Below, in pieces: positions 1 through 47,595 of a stretch of DNA of 64,000 nucleotides (its first letter is position 1; the number at the start of each line of letters is the position of its first letter). The stretch spans positions 1,015,001 through 1,079,000 of the forward strand of contig CP036424.1 of NCBI GenBank assembly GCA_007745835.1, given 5' to 3'. A program made the position numbers and the translations under genes. The stretch is from Planctomycetes bacterium MalM25. Its GTDB lineage: Bacteria > Planctomycetota > Planctomycetia > Pirellulales > Lacipirellulaceae. The notes beneath the pieces were generated by a model. The model was not told where the DNA came from. It did no database searches and saw only the letters and a program-made list of their open reading frames with translations.

Positions 1-1667
1 GAGCGGATGACGAACGTCGGGATCAGCTCCATGAGCGACGCCGCTCCGACGGCGAGCGTGGTGAGCAGGGTGAACTTGATCGGGGCCCGCTCCCAGGCCC
101 GGTGCCACCACATGCTGGTGAAGACGTCCATCGTGCGGCCGAGATCGGTCACCTGGTTGAGGTGCGACTCGGGCGCGTCCTCGCGGGCGACGGCGGTCGC
201 GCTGAGCGAGGGCGCCTCGTAGACGGGCTCGTCGTACGCGGCGGGGCGGGCCTGCCAGGTCTTGTAGAAGTTCCAGACGCCGATCAGCGTGCCGACGATG
301 TACAGCCCCCCGCCGATAGCGCGCAGATAGTAAAAGGGGATGATCGCCTGCGTGGTTTCGACGAAGTCCGGATATTCGAGCTGTCCGCTCGAATTGATCG
401 TTCCCCACATCAGCCCCTGCAGGACGCCGGCCACGTAGAGCGGCAAGACGTAAACCAGGATGCCGATCGTCGAGGTCCAGAAGTGAGCCTCGGCGAGTGA
501 CTTGCTGTGCAACTCGGTCTGGAAGAGCCGGGGGGCCAGCCAGTAGCACATGCCGAAGACCATGAAGCCGTTCCAGCCGAGCGCGCCGGCGTGGACGTGG
601 GCGATGGTCCAGTCCGTGTAGTGCGACAGGGCGTTCACCGCCTTGATCGAGAGCATCGGGCCCTCGAACGTGCTCATCCCGTAGAACGTGATGCCCACGA
701 CAAAGAACTTGAGCACCGGGTCGCTGGTGACCTTGTGCCAGGCGCCGCGGAGCGTGAGCAGGCCGTTGATCATGCCGCCCCAGCTGGGCATCCACAGCAT
801 GAGCGAGAAGACCATGCCGAGCGTTTGCGCCCACTCGGGGATCGCTGTGTAGTGCAGGTGGTGCGGGCCGGCCCAGATGTAGATGAAGACCAACGACCAG
901 AAGTGCAGGATGCTCAACCGGTAGCTAAATACAGGCCGATCGGCCGCCTTGGGCATGAAGTAGTACATCAGCCCGAGGAAGGGGGTCGTCAGGAAGAACG
1001 CGACCGCGTTGTGGCCGTACCACCACTGCATCATCGCGTCCTGCACGCCCGCGTAGATCGGGTAGCTCTTGATGAGCGTCGGCGAGAGGATCGGCACCCA
1101 CAGGTTGTTGAAGATGTGCAGCACCGCCACGGTGATGATCGTCGCGATGTAGAACCAGAGCGCCACGTACATGTGCCGCTCGCGCCGGTTCACCAGCGTC
1201 ATGAAGAAGTTCACGCCGAAGAAGCCGGCCCAGACCACCGCGATGGCGATGTCGATCGGCCATTCGAGCTCGGCGTACTCCTTGCTCTGCGTGATGCCGA
1301 ACGGCAGGGTCAGCGCCGCGGAGACGATGATCGCTTGCCACCCCCAGAAGTGCAGGCGGCTCAGCGTGTCGTTGAACATCCGCGCCTTGCAGAGACGCTG
1401 TGTGGAGTAGTAGATCGCGGCGAACACACCGTTGCCCGCGAAGGCGAAGATCACCGCGTTGGTGTGCAGCGGGCGCAAGCGTCCGAAGCTGATCCATTCG
1501 ATTCCCCCGTTGAGCGAGGGGAAGGGGAGCTGCAACGCGAGCAGGAGGCCGACGGCGAAACCGACCAACGCCCAGACGAGCGTGGCGGCGAAGAACATGC
1601 GGACGATCGCGTCGTCGTAGCTGAAACGCTCGAGCCGGGTGTCGGCGGCGTCTTGGGGCTCGCTCAT
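1..1667 (-). CDS. ccoNO: cbb3-type cytochrome c oxidase, fused subunits I and II (partial, runs off left edge)
   Basis: Terminal haem-copper oxidase of the inner membrane that reduces O2 with electrons from c-type cytochromes. About 555 codons are visible from an ATG at 1667; the C-terminus lies outside the window. The first ~475 residues are a multi-pass CcoN core with the conserved histidines in RPLHTNAV (H68), WWYGHNAV, AGPHHLHY and HVHAGALGWN. After a hydrophilic linker the chain continues in frame into SMWWHRAWERAPIKFTLLTT, the usual start of CcoO with its membrane anchor, so CcoN and CcoO are fused. The haem-c site of CcoO would lie beyond the edge. The Rrf2 gene sits 137 bp upstream on the same strand, suggesting regulation by Fe-S or redox state (inference). 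Confidence 0.93.
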   Translation of the reverse strand, partial: MSEPQDAADTRLERFSYDDAIVRMFFAATLVWALVGFAVGLLLALQLPFPSLNGGIEWISFGRLRPLHTNAVIFAFAGNGVFAAIYYSTQRLCKARMFNDTLSRLHFWGWQAIIVSAALTLPFGITQSKEYAELEWPIDIAIAVVWAGFFGVNFFMTLVNRRERHMYVALWFYIATIITVAVLHIFNNLWVPILSPTLIKSYPIYAGVQDAMMQWWYGHNAVAFFLTTPFLGLMYYFMPKAADRPVFSYRLSILHFWSLVFIYIWAGPHHLHYTAIPEWAQTLGMVFSLMLWMPSWGGMINGLLTLRGAWHKVTSDPVLKFFVVGITFYGMSTFEGPMLSIKAVNALSHYTDWTIAHVHAGALGWNGFMVFGMCYWLAPRLFQTELHSKSLAEAHFWTSTIGILVYVLPLYVAGVLQGLMWGTINSSGQLEYPDFVETTQAIIPFYYLRAIGGGLYIVGTLIGVWNFYKTWQARPAAYDEPVYEAPSLSATAVAREDAPESHLNQVTDLGRTMDVFTSMWWHRAWERAPIKFTLLTTLAVGAASLMELIPTFVIR

Positions 1668-33897: not shown

Positions 33898-35403
33898 TCA
33901 GTACGTCCACTCGGCTCCGACGTGGAAGCCGTGGTAGGTGACTTCGCCGTCGGTCGTGGCGCCCGCGCCGGGCAGGTCGGCGGCGATGTCGTTGATGTCG
34001 CCGTAGGGCTGGACCTGGGCGAGCCCGCCGTCCAGCAGCGCGACATCGCTGATGAACAGCACCTCGTAGCCCGCCTTCAGCGAGAGGCTGGGGGTCACGT
34101 CGGCCACCATCATCAGCTTCGCTTCGGTGAGGAAAGAAGCCTGGTTGCCCGAGAAGCCCGTGGCGGAGCCCATCGGGCTGCCGTCGGCGGCGATCGCCGA
34201 GCCGCTGAAGTCGTACTCGTTGTTGTAGATGCCGACCTTCACCTCCGTGCCCAGACGCAGGCCTTGCAGCACGGTGACCCACACGTCACCGCCGCACTCG
34301 AAGCCGGCGAGTTGGTTGTCGGCGTCGGCGTCGATGTTGATCGTCAACGCCGGGTCCGCGCCGAATGTGTCGGGCGACGTGCCGGTCTGCTGGCTGCCGA
34401 TGGACGTGAACCCGAGCCGCTCGCTCAGGCTCGTGTAGCGGAAGCCGAGCAGGATCGTGCCGCTGATTCGCGGGTTGTAGCCGACCCAGTAGCGGCGGAA
34501 CAACGCCTCGGCGTTGTGCAACTCACTCTCGTAACGGATGCCGTGGTACGAGGCGAAGTCGGTCTCTTGGAAGTTGGTCCCGCCCGGGTTGTCGTTCAGC
34601 GGGTTGTTGCTGCCGGGGGCCGAATCGGAGTCGACCGGGCGTCCCGGGTCGGAGCCCGCGGGGCCGTTGGTCCGGGTTCCGAATCGGCTGAACACCGAGA
34701 AAAGGCGGGCCGTTTCGCTGTCGTCCGGCGCCGCGAACGAGGCGGAGTCCTCATCCCAAAGGCCGCTGTAGGCGACCTCGAAGACCGAGAGGGCGCCGAC
34801 GTCGATCCGTCCGGTGAGGCGGAAACCGTCCAACGCGTCGCTGCTCAGCTGGCTGGTCGAAAGCCGTGTGGCGGAGTCTAGGTCGTTCAGGTTCTCGTTG
34901 GCGAAACCGATGGTGGTGATCGGCAGATTGCCCAGGGCCGACCCGTCCCGCTCGTAGTGCAGGTACTCGGCGGAGAGGTCGAAGTAGTGCGGTCCGCACT
35001 GCTCGGTGTTGCCCAGCCCGGCGAGTAGAGCGGCCAGTCGGCCATGCCCGTGACCGCCAAACAGGCCGCTGCAGAGGCCACCGCCACCACCGCCGCAAGC
35101 GCCGCCGCCGCCGTGGCAACCGTAGCCGTACTCGCCGCCGTAGCAGCCACCGCAGGCGGGGCCACCGCCGTAGCAGCCGGCGTCACCGCAGGCGTAGCTG
35201 GCCGGGGTGACGAAAGGCTCGCCGTAGGCGTTGACGAAGGCGTTGTCCTGCCTGCCGCCGCCGTAATGCGTCGCCGGGGCGACGTCCTGGACCGCCGCGG
35301 GTCCGCCGGCGACGAAGCCGGGCTGCATCAGCGGGCTTTGGCCCGTCACCACGGCCGCCAGGCCGAAGACCGCACTCAGTGCGGCTCCATAAAGAGTCCT
35401 CAT
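33898..35403 (-). CDS. BBP7-family outer-membrane beta-barrel protein
   Basis: 501 residues. A signal peptide (MRTLYGAALSAVFGLAAVVTG) is followed by a Gly/Cys-rich low-complexity segment (~65-120: CYGGGPACGGCYGG, CGGGGGGLCSG) and then a barrel of alternating strands: YFDLSAEYLHYERDG, RLTGRIDVGALSVFEVAYSGLW, YWVGYNPRISGTILLGFRYTSL, GLRLGTEVKVGIYNNEYDF, ending HVGAEWTY with a C-terminal aromatic. This layout matches the BBP7 planctomycete outer-membrane family. The ATG at 35403 opens the signal peptide; a GGGAG run lies very close to it. Confidence 0.85.
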   Translation of the reverse strand: MRTLYGAALSAVFGLAAVVTGQSPLMQPGFVAGGPAAVQDVAPATHYGGGRQDNAFVNAYGEPFVTPASYACGDAGCYGGGPACGGCYGGEYGYGCHGGGGACGGGGGGLCSGLFGGHGHGRLAALLAGLGNTEQCGPHYFDLSAEYLHYERDGSALGNLPITTIGFANENLNDLDSATRLSTSQLSSDALDGFRLTGRIDVGALSVFEVAYSGLWDEDSASFAAPDDSETARLFSVFSRFGTRTNGPAGSDPGRPVDSDSAPGSNNPLNDNPGGTNFQETDFASYHGIRYESELHNAEALFRRYWVGYNPRISGTILLGFRYTSLSERLGFTSIGSQQTGTSPDTFGADPALTINIDADADNQLAGFECGGDVWVTVLQGLRLGTEVKVGIYNNEYDFSGSAIAADGSPMGSATGFSGNQASFLTEAKLMMVADVTPSLSLKAGYEVLFISDVALLDGGLAQVQPYGDINDIAADLPGAGATTDGEVTYHGFHVGAEWTY

Positions 35404-35965
35404 CGCTCCCCCCCGAAAACGGTGTCGCGGGCCATTCCCGGCCACGCTGGCTTATCGGCCTCCACGCCGGGCCGGCCACGGGGGCGGGCTTCGGGGCGAA
35501 GGCTCCTCTTGAGCGGCCGCGTGGGCGGCCACCTAAGTGGTTCGTTCGAGAGTGTCTATCGGAGCCCTTCCACCGGAGGAACCAGTCGATTCAGTACAGA
35601 CCGCAAAGTTTCCCAAACTGTGGCGAAACCCGGGAAAACGAGGTTGAATCGACATTCGGGGGCCCTGGCGGGCCTCCGCCGTAATGGTCACGGCGAGTTT
35701 GACGCTCCCTAGGGGCGTGGTTAGCCTGAAGGTTCGTGTCAAAACAGGTTAAATACGCTGACTTCGCAGACCGGGGTGTGACAGCCAACCGCTGTTCAGG
35801 CCTCGGTTTAGGGCGGACGGCTCACCCCGATCGCTCCGCTGCCAACCGCCCCTTCGGAATAACCGCTACGACCGGCGACGAATCGAAGTAGCACCGTCGT
35901 TGTGTCCAGGCTCCGGGTCCCCCCCGGCGCTGCCCCCCAAGATCTCCCGCCTAGGAACGTTAGAA
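35404..35965. other. Intergenic region between divergent surface-protein genes (562 bp)
   Basis: The longest gene-free stretch of the window. It must hold the promoters of the BBP7-like gene and the giant secreted protein. I see no clear -35/-10 pair, tRNA, or large palindrome; small open frames here look non-coding. Part of it (35690-35780) is AT-richer and is the best place for a promoter. Confidence 0.4.
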
Positions 35966-38900
35966 GTGCGCAAGAACCGCCCCTCCCGCCGGTCTCGCCG
36001 CAACGGATTCACCCGCCTGCTGGGCGGATCGAGCTCGGAGCTCCGCCGCGCCCCGCGTCGCGGCGCGCTCGAACGGCTCGAAGAACGCCAGGTGCTGTCG
36101 GCCAATGTAGGGGGGAATCCCTACTTCGAGGACCAATGGAACCTCAACGCGGATGGTCAGCAGACCGAGTTCGACCCGACCTCGCCGACCCGCTTCCAAA
36201 CCCTCGCCGAGATCGACAACAACGTTGTTGAGGCTTGGGAACAGCTCTTCACCGGCGCCGGGGTGCAGGTCGGCATCATCGCGGGTGGGTTCGACCTGAC
36301 GCACGAGGACCTGGCGGCGGGCTTCGCCGACGCGCTAGCGTACGACGCGATCGGCAGCTTCGCCGGCGGGGTGCTCTCGACGATTGACCTGGACCCGTCG
36401 ATCGAGCCGGACTTCTTCGACGACGGGCCCGACTCCCTGGGCACCGCGGCCGCGGGCATCATCGGCGCCCGCAACAACGACTTGGGCATCGTCGGCATCG
36501 CGTACGAAGCGGACCTCGTGCCGATCCGCGCCGTAAGCAACGACTTCCGCAACACATTCGCCGACGAGAACATGATCGCCTCGGCGATCCGCTGGCGGAT
36601 GGGCACGGTCCAGGACATCAACGGGGACGGCATCGTCGACGGGGTCGATAACGACGGCGACGGCATCATCGATGGCTACGCTTCGGACGAGGTGATCGAC
36701 GTCTACTTCGTCGCGAACGAGGTGAACAACAACTTCGGGGACTCCCCCGGCACGGTCTTCGCCAACGACGCCAACTTCCTGCCGGACGAGGTCCGCCAGG
36801 CGATCGAGGACGGCTACAACTTCGGCCGCTCCCGCTGGGACGACACGGACGGCGACGGCGTCTTCGACCTCGACGAGGTGACCTCGTTGGGCGCGATCTA
36901 TGTCGTGCCCGCGGGCAACGACAACGGGGCGGTGCTCGCCGTCAACGACCCGACGGGCATCTACGCCTCGTCGCAGTTCAACGAGTTGGCGAACAGCCGG
37001 TACACGATCGCCGTGGGCGCCGTGGATTACGACGGCCGCTACGAAAACAACGCCACGGGCACGGTCACCTCCTACGCCGAGATCGGCCCGAACGTGCTGA
37101 TCGTCGCCCCCTCGGGGACCGACCAGGTCGACCTCTCGGCGGACAACGACCTGAACTCGGGCATCCTCACGACCGACGTCAGCGGCGACCTGGGGTTGAA
37201 TCAGAGCCCGGTCTTCAACAACGAGATCGACGACGACTACTTCCCGGACACGGATTACACGTCCACCTTCGGCGGCACCGAGGCGGCCGCGGCGCAGGTG
37301 ACCGGGGTGGTCGCGCAGATGCTGCAGGCGAACCCGAACCTGACCAACCGCGACGTCGAGATGATCCTCTTGATGTCCGCCCAGCAGACCGACCAGTTCA
37401 GCGAGAGTTGGGTCACCAACCCGCACCTGTTCTTCGCCGACCTGTACGCACCGCCCGCCTACGCCGCGTACACGGTCAGCAACGGTGGCGACACCATCCA
37501 GAACGCGATCCTCCCCAACACGTCGATCTACAACCAGCTGTCCTACGACGCGGACGTTATCCGGGCTTACTTCCTGAACAACCCGGACCTGACCTTCCCG
37601 GACCTCCCGCTGCTCGACGCCACCGGTCAAACGGTGGACGGCGTTCCGTTCGAGGTTCTCGCGTCGAACCTGCCCCTGGGGATCGATGCCGCCCAGAACA
37701 ACCCCGATCCGCTCTTCATCTTCCCGGCAGGTCTGGGCGACGCCGACATCCAGATCGGCTTTGACGACCTCGTCGCCCCGAACTCCGCCAACGGCGATGG
37801 GCTCCGGTTCGAGAACGGCGCGGGCTTCACCGTGAGCTCGGGCTACGGTCGCTACCTCGAGGAGATCGGGTACGCCCACGGCCTGCTCGACGCCGGCTTG
37901 GCGGTCGAGTTGGCCTCCAGGTGGGGCACCGAGGACCTGCACAAGGACCAATCGGTCTCGATCTCCACGCCGATCATCGACACGGGGGTTCTTGCGATCC
38001 AAGGCGCAGCACGCGTCAGCCTCGGCAACAACTTGCCCGATTTCATTGTCCCCGGCGGGTTCGGCACAACGCCGATCAACGGCGGCTTCTACACCGAGTT
38101 CTTGCAGACGCTCGAGACCGAGGAGATCGAGTTCGATAGCGGACTCGTCGGCGAGGTCATCACGGACGCTCCGTTCTTCGACCCAGATGAGACCTTCGTC
38201 CGCAACCGGGGAGCGACCTGGATTCCGATCCAAGTCGATCAGAGCGTCGAGACCGATTTCTTGTCGCTCGAGTGGCTTGAGCTACGGGCGGACTTCGTCG
38301 GGGTCGATGTCGACAACATGGCGGTCACGCTCGTGTCGCCCGACGGCACGCACACCGAGATGAACCCGTACCGCGGCTCCACGTTCATTGGTGGCAACTC
38401 GATCTTCCAGACCTCGCAGGTCTCCCAGAGTTGGGGAGTGCCCGGTTTCAGCGAGGTGATCGGTCCCGAGGTCGATATCGACGGGTCCGAACTCTTCGAT
38501 ACGGCTCTCATTGATCTGCCCGACCCGCTGCTGGGCATAGGCGACGACACCTGGGTGTGGACGACCAACCGGCACTACGGGGAGCTGTTCAGTGTCGAGG
38601 CGTCCCACAACGCCACGAGCGTGATCGCGGACGAAACGCAGGTTGAGGACGACGTTTGGTACCTGGTCTTTGAGAACTGGGGCGCCGCCGCGGGCGGCCT
38701 CGACGGGTATCAGGTGACGTTGCACGGGACCGAGGTCAGCGGGCAACGGATCCAGGGCAAGATCGGCGTCGACGACAACGCCCAGGGCGTCGATTTCTAT
38801 AACCTGCCCCAAGCGCCGGGCGGGGTTGGCGCCGAGAACCCGACCCCGGAGCAACTGGGTGACGGCATCTTCAACTTCGACCGTCTCGTCGAGTACGGGC

Positions 38901-41900
38901 AGGTCACCATCGACTTCGCTCCGAACATCGATCCGATCACCGGCTTCAACCTGTTGGACGGCAACGAGGAAGTGATCACCGTCGTGCTCGACGACGCGGG
39001 CGACTCGGTCCACTTCGCCGACCTGAACGATTCGTTCCGTGATCGCTCGTATCGAACCTTCGATCCGGACAACCAGATCGAGTACACCTACCCGATCGTC
39101 GATCTCGACGCCTACTCCGAGGGCAACTCGTTCGACCTCGCGTCGAACCTCGCCGAGTTCGACCTGCAGTACGTGGGCGCCCTCGTCGAGCCCGCCATCC
39201 GCACCAACGACGGAACGATCGACATCGCCGGAGGCCTGGACGGCACGATCGGCCGGGTGCGGAACTTCGACTACAGCCAGGAGAGCTTCGCGGCGGGGGT
39301 CTCGGTCCTCGCGACGCAGTACGAGGTCTCGTACGACCAGTTCGGCAACCCGACCACGCGCACCGCGACCGGCAAGGTGCAACGGTTCGTCACGGGCGCC
39401 GACGGCAACTATTACTTCGATGTCGAATCGGTCCCCGCCCCGCCCGACCCGATCGTGGACCCGGCGGCTTACGCGAACTGGCTGTTGGATTTCGGATCGA
39501 CCTTCGAGTACGACATCTCGCTCGACGGGGAGGCCGAGCGGACCTGGGACCGTTCCTACACGCTCGACACCCAGGAAGACCCGACCTCCCAGGTCTCGTA
39601 CCAGGGAGCGGGCGTCTACACGGTCCAGCTCTTCGATAACACCGAGGTCCTGAACGGCGTCACGACCAGCGTCCGGGACGTCAACTTCTTGCTCGCGGTC
39701 GATCTCGACGAGATCCGCCTGAACGTCACGGGGGATGTGATCCGCGACCTCGACGGCGACGGCGTGCTCGACCCGACCGACGGCATCTACGCCGGCATCC
39801 GCGTTTACGTGGACGCCGACGGCAACGACCAGTTCGACGCCGGCGAGAAGGAAGCGATCACCGACGCGAGCGGGGCTTACTCCTTGGAGATCGACCCGGG
39901 CGCCGAGAGCAGCGTCTCGATCCGGCTCGACCCGACGACCTACCCCGAGCCCCTCCGGGCGATCACCCCGATCGACGGGCTGGGCGACGCCGAGTTGGTC
40001 CTCTCAAACTTCGAGACGGGCGACAACTTCGCCGGGCAGGACTTCTTCCTGAAGCCGACCGCCAGCTTTATCACGGGCGCCGTCTGGCAGGACGTCAACG
40101 AGGACGGCGTGTTCGACGCCGACGAGCTCGCGGTCGACGGCACGACCCTCGGCATCGATGGCGTGAACCCGGCCCTGTTCGTCTACTACGACGCCAACAA
40201 CGACGGGGCCTTCGACGCCGGCGACACCAAGGCCGACATCGACGCCTCGGGCAACTACAACCTCGAGTTCACCGACCCGGGCAACTACGTGCTCCGGCTC
40301 GACCGGACCAACGCGGGCGTCATTCAGACGTACCCGTTCGACGAGGGCGCCCAGTTCGTCGATCTGGCCAGCGAAGAGACTCGCGGGGGGGTGAACTTCG
40401 GCATCGAGACCTTGGTGGTCGTCGATCCGCGGGTTTACGATTACGGCGACCTGCCGGATAGCTACGGCACGACGCTCGCTGCGGACGGGGCGCGTCACCG
40501 GGTGACCGGCAACGTCTACCTGGGCGCCAGCGCTCCGGACCTGGAGCTCGACGGACAGCCGACCGCCAACGCGGACGGCGACGACGCCAACGGCTTCGAC
40601 GACGAGGACGGCGTCCGGTTCGTCAGCCCCGTCATCGAGGCGGACTCCACGGTCGAGTTCGACATCGTCGCGCACGGCGGCGGCGCCCTGCTCAACGCCT
40701 GGATCGACTTCAACAACAACGGGGTCTTCGAGGAGGACGAGCAGGTCTTCGACGACGTCGCCGACCTCGGCACGGGCGTCGAGACCCGCATCTCGGCTCC
40801 GACCCCCTCCAGCCTCGCCGACGTGGACCGTTACGCGGCCCGTTTCCGCTGGGGCCCCTTCGGCCTCGAGCCGACCGGCGAAGCGAACGACGGCGAGGTC
40901 GAGGACCTGTGGCTCTCGCCCGAAGCGATCGTCGTCAGCGGCGAGATCCGTCGCGACGCGGATTACGACGAGACCCTGGAGGAGACCGACACCCAGCGCG
41001 CCGGCATCCGGGTCTTCCTGGACCTCAACGACAACGACGCCTACGACGCGGACGAGCCGAGCAGCGTCACCAACTCCGAGGGCCAGTACTCGATCGAGAT
41101 CACTCCGACCGGCGAATCGACGCCCTTCGAAGTCCGCGTCGACACTTCGACGCTCGACGCCGGCGAAGGCTTCAACGCACCGGCGGACGGGGTCTTCTCG
41201 GATTCGGGAACGCCCGGCCAGGCGTTCGACGCCGACTTCCTCTTGTCCCCGCAGCCGGCGACCGCGCAAGCGATCACCGGGACCGTGTTCGGTGACCTCG
41301 ACAACAACGGGGAATACGACACGCCGGGCGAGTCCGGCTTCGAGGGGCTCACGGTCGAACTGTTGAAGAACCTCGACGCCGACCCCGAGTTGGAGGTGGT
41401 CCAGAGCACCACCACCAACGCGAGCGGGGTCTACGGCTTCGGCGTCGAGGACACGGGCCTCTACGAGGTCCGACTCGTGCTGCCCGCAGGCGGCACCCTC
41501 GTGAAGTCGACGCCCGGCGGCGACACCGTCGAGGTGGCCGTCGCGGCGGACGCGGTGGTCACCGCACCGCGGATCGGGGTCTTCGACGTCCGCACGACCT
41601 ACACCCGCGACTACGGCGACCTAGGGATCTCGGGCGGCGACAACTACCCGACGACCGCCGTTCAGGAAGGCCCGAGTCACTTGGTTGTCGAAGGGGTCTA
41701 CCTCGGGTCGAGCGTCGACGCCGATAGCGGTCAGCTCACGTCGACCAACGGCACGGCGGACGACACGGACTTCACCGACGACGAAGACGGCGTCGCGTTG
41801 CTGAGCCAGGAGATCCTCGCCGGCGAGACGGTTTCGTTTGAGGTCACGGCCACCGGCGACGCGTCGTCGCGGCTCAACATGTGGGTCGACTTCGACGACA

Positions 41901-42691
41901 ACGGCGTCTTCGACGCCGACGAGCAGATCGCGACCGACGTGGCGCTCACGTCGGGCGTGCCTCAGCAGATCGACTACGTCGCGAACGCCGACACCGACGC
42001 GGCCGCCACGCTGCTCGCCGTGCGGGCCCGTTGGGGCACGCCGGGCGTCGGCGCGGACGACGTTGGCCTCACCGACGAACAGAAGGACGCGATCGTTGGC
42101 GAGGTCGAGGACCAGTTCGTCCGCACCAGCCAGCCGAGCGTCCTGGTCTCGCCGATCCCGGGCGACTTCGACGGCTCGGGCGTTGTGGACTCCGCGGACG
42201 AGCAGGTCTGGCGCATGTCCTACGGCGCCGTGGGAGCGGGGCTGGCGGCCGACGCCAACGACAACGGCCGCATCGACGCCGGCGACTACTCCATCTGGCG
42301 TGACGCCTACGCGGACGCCCAAGCGGCCGCTTCCGCGATCGCCACGGCGACGGCTCCGGCAGCCGCCCCCGTGGCGGACGAGCCCGCCGAGGTCCCGCCG
42401 GTCGTCACCATGCCGATCGAGGACGTCCTCGAGCCCGTTAGCTACGACGCCAACGCCTTCGCCCCGATGGCCCTCCTGAGCGCGTTCCAGACGGCCGCGG
42501 TCGATGAGTCGCTGTCGGTCGAAGAGGAGACCGCCGGAGCCGCCGACGACGCGATCGCCGCCGCTCTGCTCGAGTGGTCGTTCGAGGGCGTCGCGGAGCA
42601 AGACGACGAAGAGGTCGAGACCGGCGCCGCCGCGGACGACGAGTCCGAGGAGACGGCCGACACCGCCCTCGACGAAGCGTTCGCTCTCTGA
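35966..42691 (+). CDS. Giant secreted protein with catalytically inactive kexin/subtilisin-like domain, P domain, SdrD-type repeats, two GEVED domains and dockerin
   Basis: 2241 residues from GTG 35966. Basic leader ending ALERLEERQVLSA, a planctomycete export leader. Residues ~50-480 follow the S8 kexin fold (QWNLNADGQQ, GIIAGGFDLTHEDL, LGTAAAGIIGA, GNDNGAV, FGGTEAAAAQVTGVVAQML), but the triad is lost: Asp is A106, His is L158, Ser is E439. A P (proprotein convertase) domain at ~750-925 ends FENWGAAAGGLDGYQVTLHG. Then come SdrD/Cna-like calcium-rich repeats (~1253-1490 and ~1652-1865) interleaved with two GEVED domains (ending GEVEDLWL and GEVEDQFV), a dockerin-like pair of EF loops (~2066-2113; DFDGSGVVDSADEQVW, DANDNGRIDAGDYSIW) and an acidic tail. 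It is probably a cell-surface binding or adhesion protein rather than a protease. A terminator follows. The start is the least certain part. Confidence 0.85.
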   Translation: MRKNRPSRRSRRNGFTRLLGGSSSELRRAPRRGALERLEERQVLSANVGGNPYFEDQWNLNADGQQTEFDPTSPTRFQTLAEIDNNVVEAWEQLFTGAGVQVGIIAGGFDLTHEDLAAGFADALAYDAIGSFAGGVLSTIDLDPSIEPDFFDDGPDSLGTAAAGIIGARNNDLGIVGIAYEADLVPIRAVSNDFRNTFADENMIASAIRWRMGTVQDINGDGIVDGVDNDGDGIIDGYASDEVIDVYFVANEVNNNFGDSPGTVFANDANFLPDEVRQAIEDGYNFGRSRWDDTDGDGVFDLDEVTSLGAIYVVPAGNDNGAVLAVNDPTGIYASSQFNELANSRYTIAVGAVDYDGRYENNATGTVTSYAEIGPNVLIVAPSGTDQVDLSADNDLNSGILTTDVSGDLGLNQSPVFNNEIDDDYFPDTDYTSTFGGTEAAAAQVTGVVAQMLQANPNLTNRDVEMILLMSAQQTDQFSESWVTNPHLFFADLYAPPAYAAYTVSNGGDTIQNAILPNTSIYNQLSYDADVIRAYFLNNPDLTFPDLPLLDATGQTVDGVPFEVLASNLPLGIDAAQNNPDPLFIFPAGLGDADIQIGFDDLVAPNSANGDGLRFENGAGFTVSSGYGRYLEEIGYAHGLLDAGLAVELASRWGTEDLHKDQSVSISTPIIDTGVLAIQGAARVSLGNNLPDFIVPGGFGTTPINGGFYTEFLQTLETEEIEFDSGLVGEVITDAPFFDPDETFVRNRGATWIPIQVDQSVETDFLSLEWLELRADFVGVDVDNMAVTLVSPDGTHTEMNPYRGSTFIGGNSIFQTSQVSQSWGVPGFSEVIGPEVDIDGSELFDTALIDLPDPLLGIGDDTWVWTTNRHYGELFSVEASHNATSVIADETQVEDDVWYLVFENWGAAAGGLDGYQVTLHGTEVSGQRIQGKIGVDDNAQGVDFYNLPQAPGGVGAENPTPEQLGDGIFNFDRLVEYGQVTIDFAPNIDPITGFNLLDGNEEVITVVLDDAGDSVHFADLNDSFRDRSYRTFDPDNQIEYTYPIVDLDAYSEGNSFDLASNLAEFDLQYVGALVEPAIRTNDGTIDIAGGLDGTIGRVRNFDYSQESFAAGVSVLATQYEVSYDQFGNPTTRTATGKVQRFVTGADGNYYFDVESVPAPPDPIVDPAAYANWLLDFGSTFEYDISLDGEAERTWDRSYTLDTQEDPTSQVSYQGAGVYTVQLFDNTEVLNGVTTSVRDVNFLLAVDLDEIRLNVTGDVIRDLDGDGVLDPTDGIYAGIRVYVDADGNDQFDAGEKEAITDASGAYSLEIDPGAESSVSIRLDPTTYPEPLRAITPIDGLGDAELVLSNFETGDNFAGQDFFLKPTASFITGAVWQDVNEDGVFDADELAVDGTTLGIDGVNPALFVYYDANNDGAFDAGDTKADIDASGNYNLEFTDPGNYVLRLDRTNAGVIQTYPFDEGAQFVDLASEETRGGVNFGIETLVVVDPRVYDYGDLPDSYGTTLAADGARHRVTGNVYLGASAPDLELDGQPTANADGDDANGFDDEDGVRFVSPVIEADSTVEFDIVAHGGGALLNAWIDFNNNGVFEEDEQVFDDVADLGTGVETRISAPTPSSLADVDRYAARFRWGPFGLEPTGEANDGEVEDLWLSPEAIVVSGEIRRDADYDETLEETDTQRAGIRVFLDLNDNDAYDADEPSSVTNSEGQYSIEITPTGESTPFEVRVDTSTLDAGEGFNAPADGVFSDSGTPGQAFDADFLLSPQPATAQAITGTVFGDLDNNGEYDTPGESGFEGLTVELLKNLDADPELEVVQSTTTNASGVYGFGVEDTGLYEVRLVLPAGGTLVKSTPGGDTVEVAVAADAVVTAPRIGVFDVRTTYTRDYGDLGISGGDNYPTTAVQEGPSHLVVEGVYLGSSVDADSGQLTSTNGTADDTDFTDDEDGVALLSQEILAGETVSFEVTATGDASSRLNMWVDFDDNGVFDADEQIATDVALTSGVPQQIDYVANADTDAAATLLAVRARWGTPGVGADDVGLTDEQKDAIVGEVEDQFVRTSQPSVLVSPIPGDFDGSGVVDSADEQVWRMSYGAVGAGLAADANDNGRIDAGDYSIWRDAYADAQAAASAIATATAPAAAPVADEPAEVPPVVTMPIEDVLEPVSYDANAFAPMALLSAFQTAAVDESLSVEEETAGAADDAIAAALLEWSFEGVAEQDDEEVETGAAADDESEETADTALDEAFAL

Positions 42692-45357: not shown

Positions 45358-47595
45358 ATGAGAGTCTCTCCGAGGAGGAAGCTCGACCGCCGCCGCCGGC
45401 GATCTCTGGAAGCCTTGGAGTCCCGCTTGTTGATGGCGGCCGACTGTCAGGTGGAGGCTCCCCTGCTGGATGGCGACTACGACCGAGATGGCGTCGTGTC
45501 CGCGGCCGACTACACGATCTATCGTGACACGTTGGGTCAATCGGTGGCGGCCCGTTTTGAGGCGGCCGACGGCGATGGCGATGGCGTCGTCGATCCTGAG
45601 GACCATGCCGTGTGGGCGGCCAACTACGGCGCCCGGTTCACTTCCTCGGGATCGGACCTCTTCGATCGCTACGTGGCCGCGTTGAATCACGACACCGCGT
45701 TGCCGTTGCCCAACTTCGCGTACGCCGGCTATCAACGCTCCGAGGCGCCCTTGCCCGACCCGGGCTGGCAGGTCTTCCGTGTCGGTGATTTCGGGGCCTT
45801 CCCCAACGACGGGCTCGACGACCGCGCGGCGGTCCAGAACACCATCGACGCCGCCAGCAACGCCGCCAACGGAGCCATCGTCCTGTTCGACGCGGGCCGG
45901 TACCTGCTCTCTGAGACGACCGGCCTGACCGATTCGGTCTTGGACATCGGGGCGGATAACCTGATCCTACGCGGCGCCGGCTCACAGACCGGCGGCACCG
46001 AGCTTTACTTCCGAGAGCATCTGAACAGCACCACGCCCGAGAAGTTTTGGTCGACCCCGGCGATGATCAACGCCCGGGGGGGCGGCGGCTCGGTCAACGG
46101 CACGCTGATCTCGACCGTCAGCGCCGACGCCCGCATGGGTGAGCACCGCATCCAGGTCGCCAGCGCGGGCTCGCTCTCCGTGGGCGATGTCGTTGCGATC
46201 CGCCTGGACGACCCGGCCGCGGCGAACGACGACCTGATCGCTCCCTACTCGGTCGAGGACGCATGGACGACCTTCAGGTCGGGCGAGATCACCAGCGAGC
46301 TGCACCGCATCGCCGCGATCAACGGCAACCAGCTGACGTTCGCCGAGCCGCTGGCCACGGACCTCGACTCGCAGTACCGGTGGGAGGTCCGTCGCCTCGA
46401 CGCGGGGCGGCAACTCGGCTTCGAGGACATGACCCTACGCGGCGGTTGGACGGGCGACTTCGTCCATCACCGCAGCATCATCGACGACAGCGGATGGACC
46501 GCGCTGAGGATCGTCAAGTACGTCGATTCCTGGGTCGAGAACGTCCGCATGGTCGATTGGAACCAAGGCCTCACGCTCGCGGTCGGCATGAACACGACCG
46601 TCAAGGACACCGTTGTGGAGGGCACGGCGGGCCACAGCGGGATCAGCGTACAGAACACCTACGGCGCCCTCCTGACCAATGTGCACGACCGCACCGACGG
46701 CGGCATGTGGCATCCGATGGGGGTGTCGCACCGGGCGGCGGCCACCGTTTTTCATCGTGTGAGTTGGCCCTCCAACCGGGCCTTCGACGCGCACGGCGTC
46801 TTTCCCCACGCGACGCTGTTCGACGACTCGACCGGGGGATTGGTCGGAGCGGCCAGCGGCAGCGGCGGCGCGCAGAACAACCTGCCCAACCACATGCGCG
46901 ACCTAGTCATGTGGAACTTCAATCACACGGGGCAGGACGGCCTCTACGATTGGTGGAGGACCAGCTCCCGCTTTTATCGCATCCTGCCGCCGATCCTCGT
47001 TGGCTGGCACGGCCAGTCGGCGCAGTTCCTCAGTGGCCAAGTCGAGTACGTCGAGTCGTTCGGCGCCGCGGTCCAACCCGCTTCGTTGTTCGAGGCACAG
47101 CTGAACGTGCGCTTCGGCGCCACCTCCGCGAGCCAGACGGCGGCCCGGTTCGAAGCGAGCCCGGGGATCGCCGAACCCTGGGAGCCGACGACCATCGCTC
47201 AACCGGCGACTAGGTTCAGTTCGAGCACGCCAAACGATCGCCCCACCGAGACCGGCGGTTGCGGGTGCGGCGGTGTGGGCTGCTCGGCGTGCCTGGCCGT
47301 CGCCCCGGCGACGACCGTGCCGTCTTACGAGCTGCTCGCTTTCGAGGCGGCCGCCCCGCAGCCACAACGGATCGATCGGCAGCGCGGGGCTCAACCGATC
47401 TCTTCGAAGAATCTCGACGGAGCGCAACCCGGGCTGAGCACAGAGCTCCTCGGCCTTCCGTCGCCGAGCATCCACGAAGACGACAACCAAGACGCGTTCG
47501 TCAACGCCTTGCTGGCCGACGAGGTCTTCGGGCAAGCGGAACCGGTGGACTTCGATCCCGACGAAGAATCGACCCTCGCCGCGTGGGCGCGGTGA
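45358..47595 (+). CDS. Secreted pectate-lyase-like beta-helix protein with N-terminal dockerin
   Basis: 745 residues. Arg-rich leader ending LEALESRLLMAADC, the same planctomycete export type as the 35966 gene. Residues ~37-95 carry a dockerin-like pair of EF loops (DYDRDGVVSAADYTIYRD, DGDGDGVVDPEDHAVW), placed at the N-terminus although planctomycete dockerins are usually C-terminal. Then a right-handed beta-helix of the pectate-lyase-3 type: FGAFPNDGLDDRAAVQNTID, ANLILRGAGS-like coils, VENVRMVDWNQGLTLAV, DGGMWHPMGVSHRAAATV. A Cys cluster GGCGCGGVGCSACLA lies near residue ~640. It probably acts on or binds a polysaccharide at the surface; catalytic residues were not assigned. Confidence 0.82.
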   Translation: MRVSPRRKLDRRRRRSLEALESRLLMAADCQVEAPLLDGDYDRDGVVSAADYTIYRDTLGQSVAARFEAADGDGDGVVDPEDHAVWAANYGARFTSSGSDLFDRYVAALNHDTALPLPNFAYAGYQRSEAPLPDPGWQVFRVGDFGAFPNDGLDDRAAVQNTIDAASNAANGAIVLFDAGRYLLSETTGLTDSVLDIGADNLILRGAGSQTGGTELYFREHLNSTTPEKFWSTPAMINARGGGGSVNGTLISTVSADARMGEHRIQVASAGSLSVGDVVAIRLDDPAAANDDLIAPYSVEDAWTTFRSGEITSELHRIAAINGNQLTFAEPLATDLDSQYRWEVRRLDAGRQLGFEDMTLRGGWTGDFVHHRSIIDDSGWTALRIVKYVDSWVENVRMVDWNQGLTLAVGMNTTVKDTVVEGTAGHSGISVQNTYGALLTNVHDRTDGGMWHPMGVSHRAAATVFHRVSWPSNRAFDAHGVFPHATLFDDSTGGLVGAASGSGGAQNNLPNHMRDLVMWNFNHTGQDGLYDWWRTSSRFYRILPPILVGWHGQSAQFLSGQVEYVESFGAAVQPASLFEAQLNVRFGATSASQTAARFEASPGIAEPWEPTTIAQPATRFSSSTPNDRPTETGGCGCGGVGCSACLAVAPATTVPSYELLAFEAAAPQPQRIDRQRGAQPISSKNLDGAQPGLSTELLGLPSPSIHEDDNQDAFVNALLADEVFGQAEPVDFDPDEESTLAAWAR

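Follow-up and report, generated by a model that had tools for sequence, protein, structure and literature searches.

Bacterial pseudoenzymes of the subtilase type are known from Clostridioides difficile, in which CspC and CspA keep the fold and have active relatives; in CspC, Asp105 is kept, and Thr170 and Gly485 stand in place of the His and Ser (PMC6636752). The available text of that account gives CspC its own prodomain, a jelly-roll insert and a role in spore germination, and describes it without a stalk like the one reported below. Plasmodium PIMMS2 is a subtilisin-like candidate pseudoenzyme whose catalytic residues vary among orthologues, although in the available portion of its description it is eukaryotic, with a transmembrane domain and another architecture (PMC5520436). 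Among freshwater Planctomycetes, the planctosome is likewise extracellular and combines P domains with calcium-type (TSP3) repeats, and also cohesin, but the model is hypothetical and the accessible part of its description includes no subtilase domain (PMC6461901).

We found no report of a planctomycete pseudo-subtilase, or of a giant-protein variant, in the open-access literature. Bacterial pseudo-subtilases are thus known; what is new here is a kexin-like one with a P domain, part of a giant multidomain protein, with catalysis apparently lost twice in one orthologous gene and putative EF-hand-type loops in one of the two lineages. The gene lies at 35966-42691 in the window, the whole 64,000-nucleotide stretch analysed, in a genome of a single 4.72 Mb contig. 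Its product shares with the furin/kexin convertases the fold of the catalytic and P domains (1p8j) and the oxyanion Asn. Unlike them it is bacterial, has neither triad nor prodomain, and carries two calcium-loop inserts and a long stalk.

Layout and predicted fold of the protein

The gene and its modules are as follows.
35966..42691 (+): whole gene, a multidomain pseudo-subtilase of secreted type, 2,241 aa, GTG start, open frame without internal stop
36068..36103 (+): N-terminal LERLEERQVLSA (LE) motif, residues 35-46, read from the sequence
36107..37405 (+): subtilase (S8) core, residues 48-480, from the Pfam S8 match at 97-475 and the furin fold
37406..38206 (+): region linking the S8 core and the P domain, a long low-confidence insert followed by the GYAHGLLDAG helix region common to furin, from model confidence and alignment
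38207..38740 (+): divergent P domain, residues 748-925, from the model superposed on furin 112..576 and PF01483 in other rows
39764..42022 (+): stalk of carboxypeptidase-regulatory-like, SdrD_B-like and GEVED modules, from Pfam
42161..42310 (+): dockerin-like calcium-loop pair, residues 2066-2115, found by eye

The GTG start is kept in two congeners, and AGGAA precedes the start in all three. The long in-frame gene described in the initial annotation is borne out, with zero internal stops over its 2,241 aa, and the product is probably a large secreted protein. We take the LE motif to be of a type found on planctomycete extracellular proteins; Pfam Planc_extracel scores below its cut-off in two of the orthologues. 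The modules first proposed (calcium repeats, GEVED and dockerin) survive in part: GEVED is matched by Pfam in three stretches, as is SdrD_B, the calcium-type repeats are present but lie inside the catalytic domain, and the dockerin pair is recognized by eye, with Pfam scores only in two relatives and below the cut-off. Another secreted-type protein, at 45358-47595 (+), has an LE motif, a dockerin-like pair, and pectate-lyase-like and DUF4955 domains. Elsewhere in the order, genomes G051, G145, G341, G343, G376 and G151 have S8 matches in open frames of ~6,600 to 10,000 codons, that is, in giant subtilase-containing proteins.

Both a profile match and a fold test place the protein in the peptidase S8 fold family (Pfam PF00082). 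Pfam Peptidase_S8 covers residues 97-475 (E 1.3e-19, 71.1 bits against a cut-off of 21.8), and an AlphaFold2 model of residues 48-935, built with 40 aligned rows, has furin as its top Foldseek match (E 7.7e-26). The pTM of the model is 0.78 and its mean pLDDT 70.6, high in the core and below 50 for 211 of the 888 residues. VIA-align superposes it on furin 1p8j with Z 36.1 and an rmsd of 2.3 over 453 residues, spanning 112..576 of that chain, which presumably takes in furin's own P domain. The kexin/subtilisin layout originally read from the letters is thus upheld by structure prediction and superposition. The C-terminal P domain fares less evenly: as in kexin-type convertases it follows the catalytic domain, by superposition and orthologue alignment, and PF01483 was not found by Pfam in the protein itself. 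The same profile is matched by 35 of the 40 aligned rows at E ≤ 0.1, a lax limit, and with cut-offs applied it scores mostly near the 21-bit cut-off (20.4 to 27.8) in six longer relatives scanned.

Catalytic residues among the orthologues

The active-site positions of the protein are as follows.
36281..36283 (+): A106 at the catalytic Asp position, codon GCG, from phmmer alignments and codon check
36437..36439 (+): L158 at the catalytic His position, codon CTG, from phmmer alignments and codon check
36731..36733 (+): N256 in place of the Ser in the NxSWG strand of intact relatives, from column comparison
36917..36919 (+): N318, the oxyanion-hole Asn, retained, from orthologue alignment
37280..37282 (+): E439 at the nucleophile Ser position, codon GAG, the GTSAAAP-type motif being GTEAAAA here, from phmmer alignments and codon check
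37292..37294 (+): A443 in place of the Pro found in 38 of 39 intact rows, from column comparison

The triad was mapped by phmmer alignments to furin and mirolase; phmmer against the PDB matched mirolase, furin and kexin. These alignments and the codons agree with the earlier assignment of A106, L158 and E439 to the triad positions and of a retained oxyanion Asn, so that the protein lacks the Asp/His/Ser of an active subtilase and keeps the Asn in N318. Orthology to active-type enzymes, a retained fold and lost catalytic residues give it the sequence character of an S8 pseudoprotease. Assembly error was considered as a cause of the triad loss and is unlikely, the frames being open in six genomes.

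The gene is mostly single-copy across the Lacipirellulaceae. It is matched at E ≤ 1e-8 in 36 of 43 family genomes and in 27 of the 28 of good quality; in the remaining good-quality genome (G023) it was recovered by profile and reads D/H/N/S, for a family total of 37 of 43. None of the other six genomes exceeds 83% completeness; a fragment is seen in G011. Several copies occur in G016, on contigs C133, C489, C321, C79 and C405, and the four typed copies keep the triad; G003 carries, besides its orthologue, a shorter gene for an S8 plus P-domain protein whose triad is intact. Nearly ubiquitous in the family, the intact orthologues have to our knowledge not been the subject of a study.

The alignment holds 45 rows, two short fragments (G011, G016e) being omitted from alignment and tree, and rows were clipped at 1,150 residues, which shortened the P domain of G001. 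At the Asp, His, oxyanion Asn and Ser sites, 38 rows read DHNS, one reads DHDS, and six deviate: ALNE in the window, DLNE in G001, DRNE in G002, SYNE in G003, SNDT in G007 and DRNE in G013. Counted by family genome with the gene (n = 37), 31 keep D/H/S (29 typed in the alignment, plus G016 and G023) and six have lost it. His and Ser are gone from all six; Asp is kept in three (G001, G002, G013), and all three residues are lost in the other three. Glu (GAG) occupies the Ser site in all four Botrimarina-group members and in G013; G007, of a sister genus, has Thr (ACC) and is unlike the Botrimarina-group genus at every changed site. The DHDS row (L048, from G057) has an S8 domain with D/H/S intact and Asp for the oxyanion Asn, as also occurs in the convertase PC2.

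Among the best 80 of 335 wider relatives, no row in the matches listed is without the Ser; one has E at the Asp site and another has N, and in four rows between one and three of the sites fall in gaps. Two distant subtilases, L140 and L168, have Glu or Asn at the Asp position. Twenty further loci, taken from the 173 of 396 order genomes with a match and including one from the family, read DHNS in 19 cases, the other being cut at the Asp. Conservation of A/L/E in related planctomycetes, raised in the initial annotation, is therefore found for Ser to Glu across the genus and not for A/L/E as a set, full triad loss occurring in only three of the six species. Though intact homologues exist, the changes are not unique to this protein: at least His and Ser are missing from five species of one lineage and from a sixth species of another.

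In a maximum-likelihood tree computed with the four site columns removed, the window protein, G001, G002, G003 and G007 form one clade (100/100). G013, a Pirellulimonas-type genome by inferred name, stands separate from these five and groups with two intact Posidoniimonas-type rows (100/98). The intact/lost label needs two changes on this tree, and the starred branches force two. These patterns indicate that the same protein lost its catalytic residues twice, independently. Long branches do not explain the separation of the six, because they would pull the six together. A single loss, with all six forced together, was 24.8 log-likelihood units worse (p-AU 0.024) and is rejected, albeit not strongly.

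Prodomain, calcium-type loops and constraint

The subtilase entry QW stands at residue 57, so soon after the LE motif that there is no room for a prodomain, and the protein is without the N-terminal prodomain of kexin-type enzymes and the one kept in the CspC/CspA family. The linker from LE motif to QW is 18 residues here and 14-21 in the six; in 28 intact single-copy family rows it is 48-75 residues in 19 and 129-142 in nine, and in one more row the motif was not found. A model of the long linker (15 rows) has a pLDDT of 82.5, a pTM of 0.68 and a beta-alpha-beta-beta-alpha-beta arrangement. The first eleven rows of its VIA-align results are all subtilase entries, mostly prodomain chains, with the prodomain of PC1/3 first (Z 7.8, rmsd 2.2 over 70), a modest match that may mean only a common arrangement. 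Foldseek alone gave no prodomain match for this model at E ≤ 0.001, and sequence searches with the prodomain region returned two unrelated Pfam hits (E 0.15 and 0.17) and none in a PDB profile search.

L064 and other rows with linkers of 66-75 residues have an intact triad and a recurring linker segment like SSxTxEGxxxILxxELxWQ, and the short linker of such rows is maybe a reduced propeptide. Two outgroup rows combine an intact triad with a linker of 19 residues. An intact triad can thus go with a short linker, and prodomain loss is not one-to-one with triad loss. We infer that the prodomain shrank first and was then absent in the triad-losing lineages.

Two inserts lie in the stretch between the His and the oxyanion Asn of the catalytic domain.
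36614..36673 (+): first calcium-loop insert DINGDGIVDGVDNDGDGIID, residues 217-236, with DxDGDxxxD motifs, in 5 of 5 clade members and 0 of 40 other rows
36842..36877 (+): second insert, residues 293-304, with the sequence DTDGDGVFDLDE, an EF-hand-type loop of 12 residues; a loop of this type is present in 5 of 5 clade members and 0 of 40 other rows

The spacing from His to oxyanion Asn is 151-174 residues in the clade, 121 in G013 and 99-123 in intact single-copy family rows; the added length of the clade includes both inserts, and G013 has neither. The five-member lineage has thus gained putative calcium-binding-type loops. Within residues 48-480, ten polar positions do not vary in the clade, yet fewer than 30% of intact rows (n = 39) share the residue; six are acidic positions in the loops (D228, D232, D236, D293, D297, E304). 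No new conserved His was found within residues 48-480 of the clade, nor any Lys or Cys. The absence of a newly conserved His, together with the six residues in the calcium loops, argues against a replacement catalytic triad, and none is suggested by the sequences. Glu in the nucleophile position might instead support a new kind of catalysis, for instance within an Asp-Arg-Glu set; this would be consistent with the presence of Glu (GAG) there in five of the six and in both lineages, and with the occurrence of D/R/E once in each losing lineage (G002, G013). We nonetheless consider it very improbable, as Arg is absent from four of the six, Asp is lost from three, the window protein has only A/L/E, and residues 48-480 show no new conservation of His, Lys or Cys.

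Conserved columns were counted over 29 of the 39 intact rows at a threshold of at least 90% conservation, ten rows (outgroups, divergent copies and fragments) being omitted. Of the 135 conserved columns, only H158, S256, S439 and P443 are altered in all six non-catalytic proteins, and 60 are unaltered in all six. S256 is the Ser of NxSWG, the substrate strand, and position 443 is Ala or Ser in the six. The corresponding residue of subtilisin, Pro225, is reportedly changed to Ala in designed ligases, relieving crowding at the nucleophile, and by analogy losing Pro443 together with the replacement of Ser by Glu may be a matter of packing. The S8 domain retains 72-77% of conserved columns in the clade, 87% in G013 and 76-85% in three distant intact rows; for the P domain the six retain 81-95%, apart from 48% in G001, whose row was clipped.

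Substitution rates on S8 were estimated by Nei-Gojobori and are limited by near-saturated dS. The dN/dS is 0.11 for G001 against G002, where dS (2.0) is almost saturated; three clade pairs further apart give 0.46-0.51, G013 against G018 gives 0.50, and three intact pairs give 0.06, 0.14 and 0.30. The clade stem is long (0.79), and with the higher dN/dS this means that the S8 of the clade is constrained yet seems to evolve faster than that of intact relatives.

The main alternative without function is relaxed decay, in which the protease would have become dispensable and its domain a passive filler in a long surface protein. The long stem, the dN/dS of about 0.5 in the more divergent pairs and the different residues at the Asp and His sites among species are what decay would produce, but we regard it as unlikely: the frames in all six genomes are open, at 1,812-2,595 aa and without stops, the columns altered in all six are active-site positions, the share of conserved S8 columns kept by the clade compares with that of the three distant intact rows, and the gained loops are conserved in 5 of 5. 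The same observations accord with the first impression that the gene is not simply decaying. As judged from sequence, the protein is a pseudoprotease under constraint.

Gene neighbourhood and possible role

The divergent neighbour is the following.
33898..35445 (-): gene for a BBP7-type beta-barrel protein; 18 of 20 relatives compared show the same head-to-head pair

In this sample of 20 relatives (19 kb of context), the BBP7 pairing persists whether the triad is intact or lost, and a functional link between the barrel and the pseudo-subtilase gene is possible. HflX is close by in 15 of the 20, and STAS and HATPase genes are found in four, exactly the clade's other four triad-losing members. 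The shared neighbourhood (BBP7 and HflX, with STAS/HATPase in the clade) supports orthology.

The main functional alternative is that the protein regulates an active subtilase, binding and controlling it or shielding substrates from it, much as the available account has CspC and CspA act with CspB in C. difficile spores (PMC6636752). A candidate partner in the same genome, L031, has intact D/H/N/S and an LE-type N-terminus, but its gene is distant (about 3,302,390, against 1,015,001-1,079,000 for the window), and we think such a role quite unlikely. The same genome has a third S8 match, L032.

Our preferred reading, which we hold to be probable, is that the protein is a pseudoprotease throughout its lineage, orthologous to a conserved furin-like protease of the Lacipirellulaceae; catalysis was lost, and the dead S8 plus P head, stabilised by calcium, would serve binding or scaffolding outside the cell. 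That protease, with its S8 and P domains, is mostly single-copy in the family. Sequence comparison shows that the protein has no nucleophile, general base or substrate-strand Ser, no Pro behind the nucleophile position and no prodomain, while fold and P domain are retained and two calcium-type loop inserts have been acquired in the stretch from His to oxyanion Asn. The dead S8 plus P unit would then form a calcium-stabilised head on a GEVED/SdrD-type stalk, placed outside the cell by its motifs, and may hold a peptide, a glycan or a partner protein uncut, possibly the divergently encoded BBP7 barrel. We offer more tentatively, as possible rather than probable, that two independent conversions took place in the same way, Ser being replaced by Glu and His being lost, and that one lineage put EF-hand-type loops into the dead catalytic face to make a calcium-dependent receptor or adhesin head.

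The pseudoprotease reading suggests that a furin-like cutting enzyme may have been reused as a binding part. The orthologues of this one gene, mostly at the same locus and with the triad either intact or lost in what appear to be two separate events, constitute a natural experiment. Such a system could show what role a protease fold plays once it no longer cuts, and whether the calcium loops and the Glu in the nucleophile position belong to that new role.
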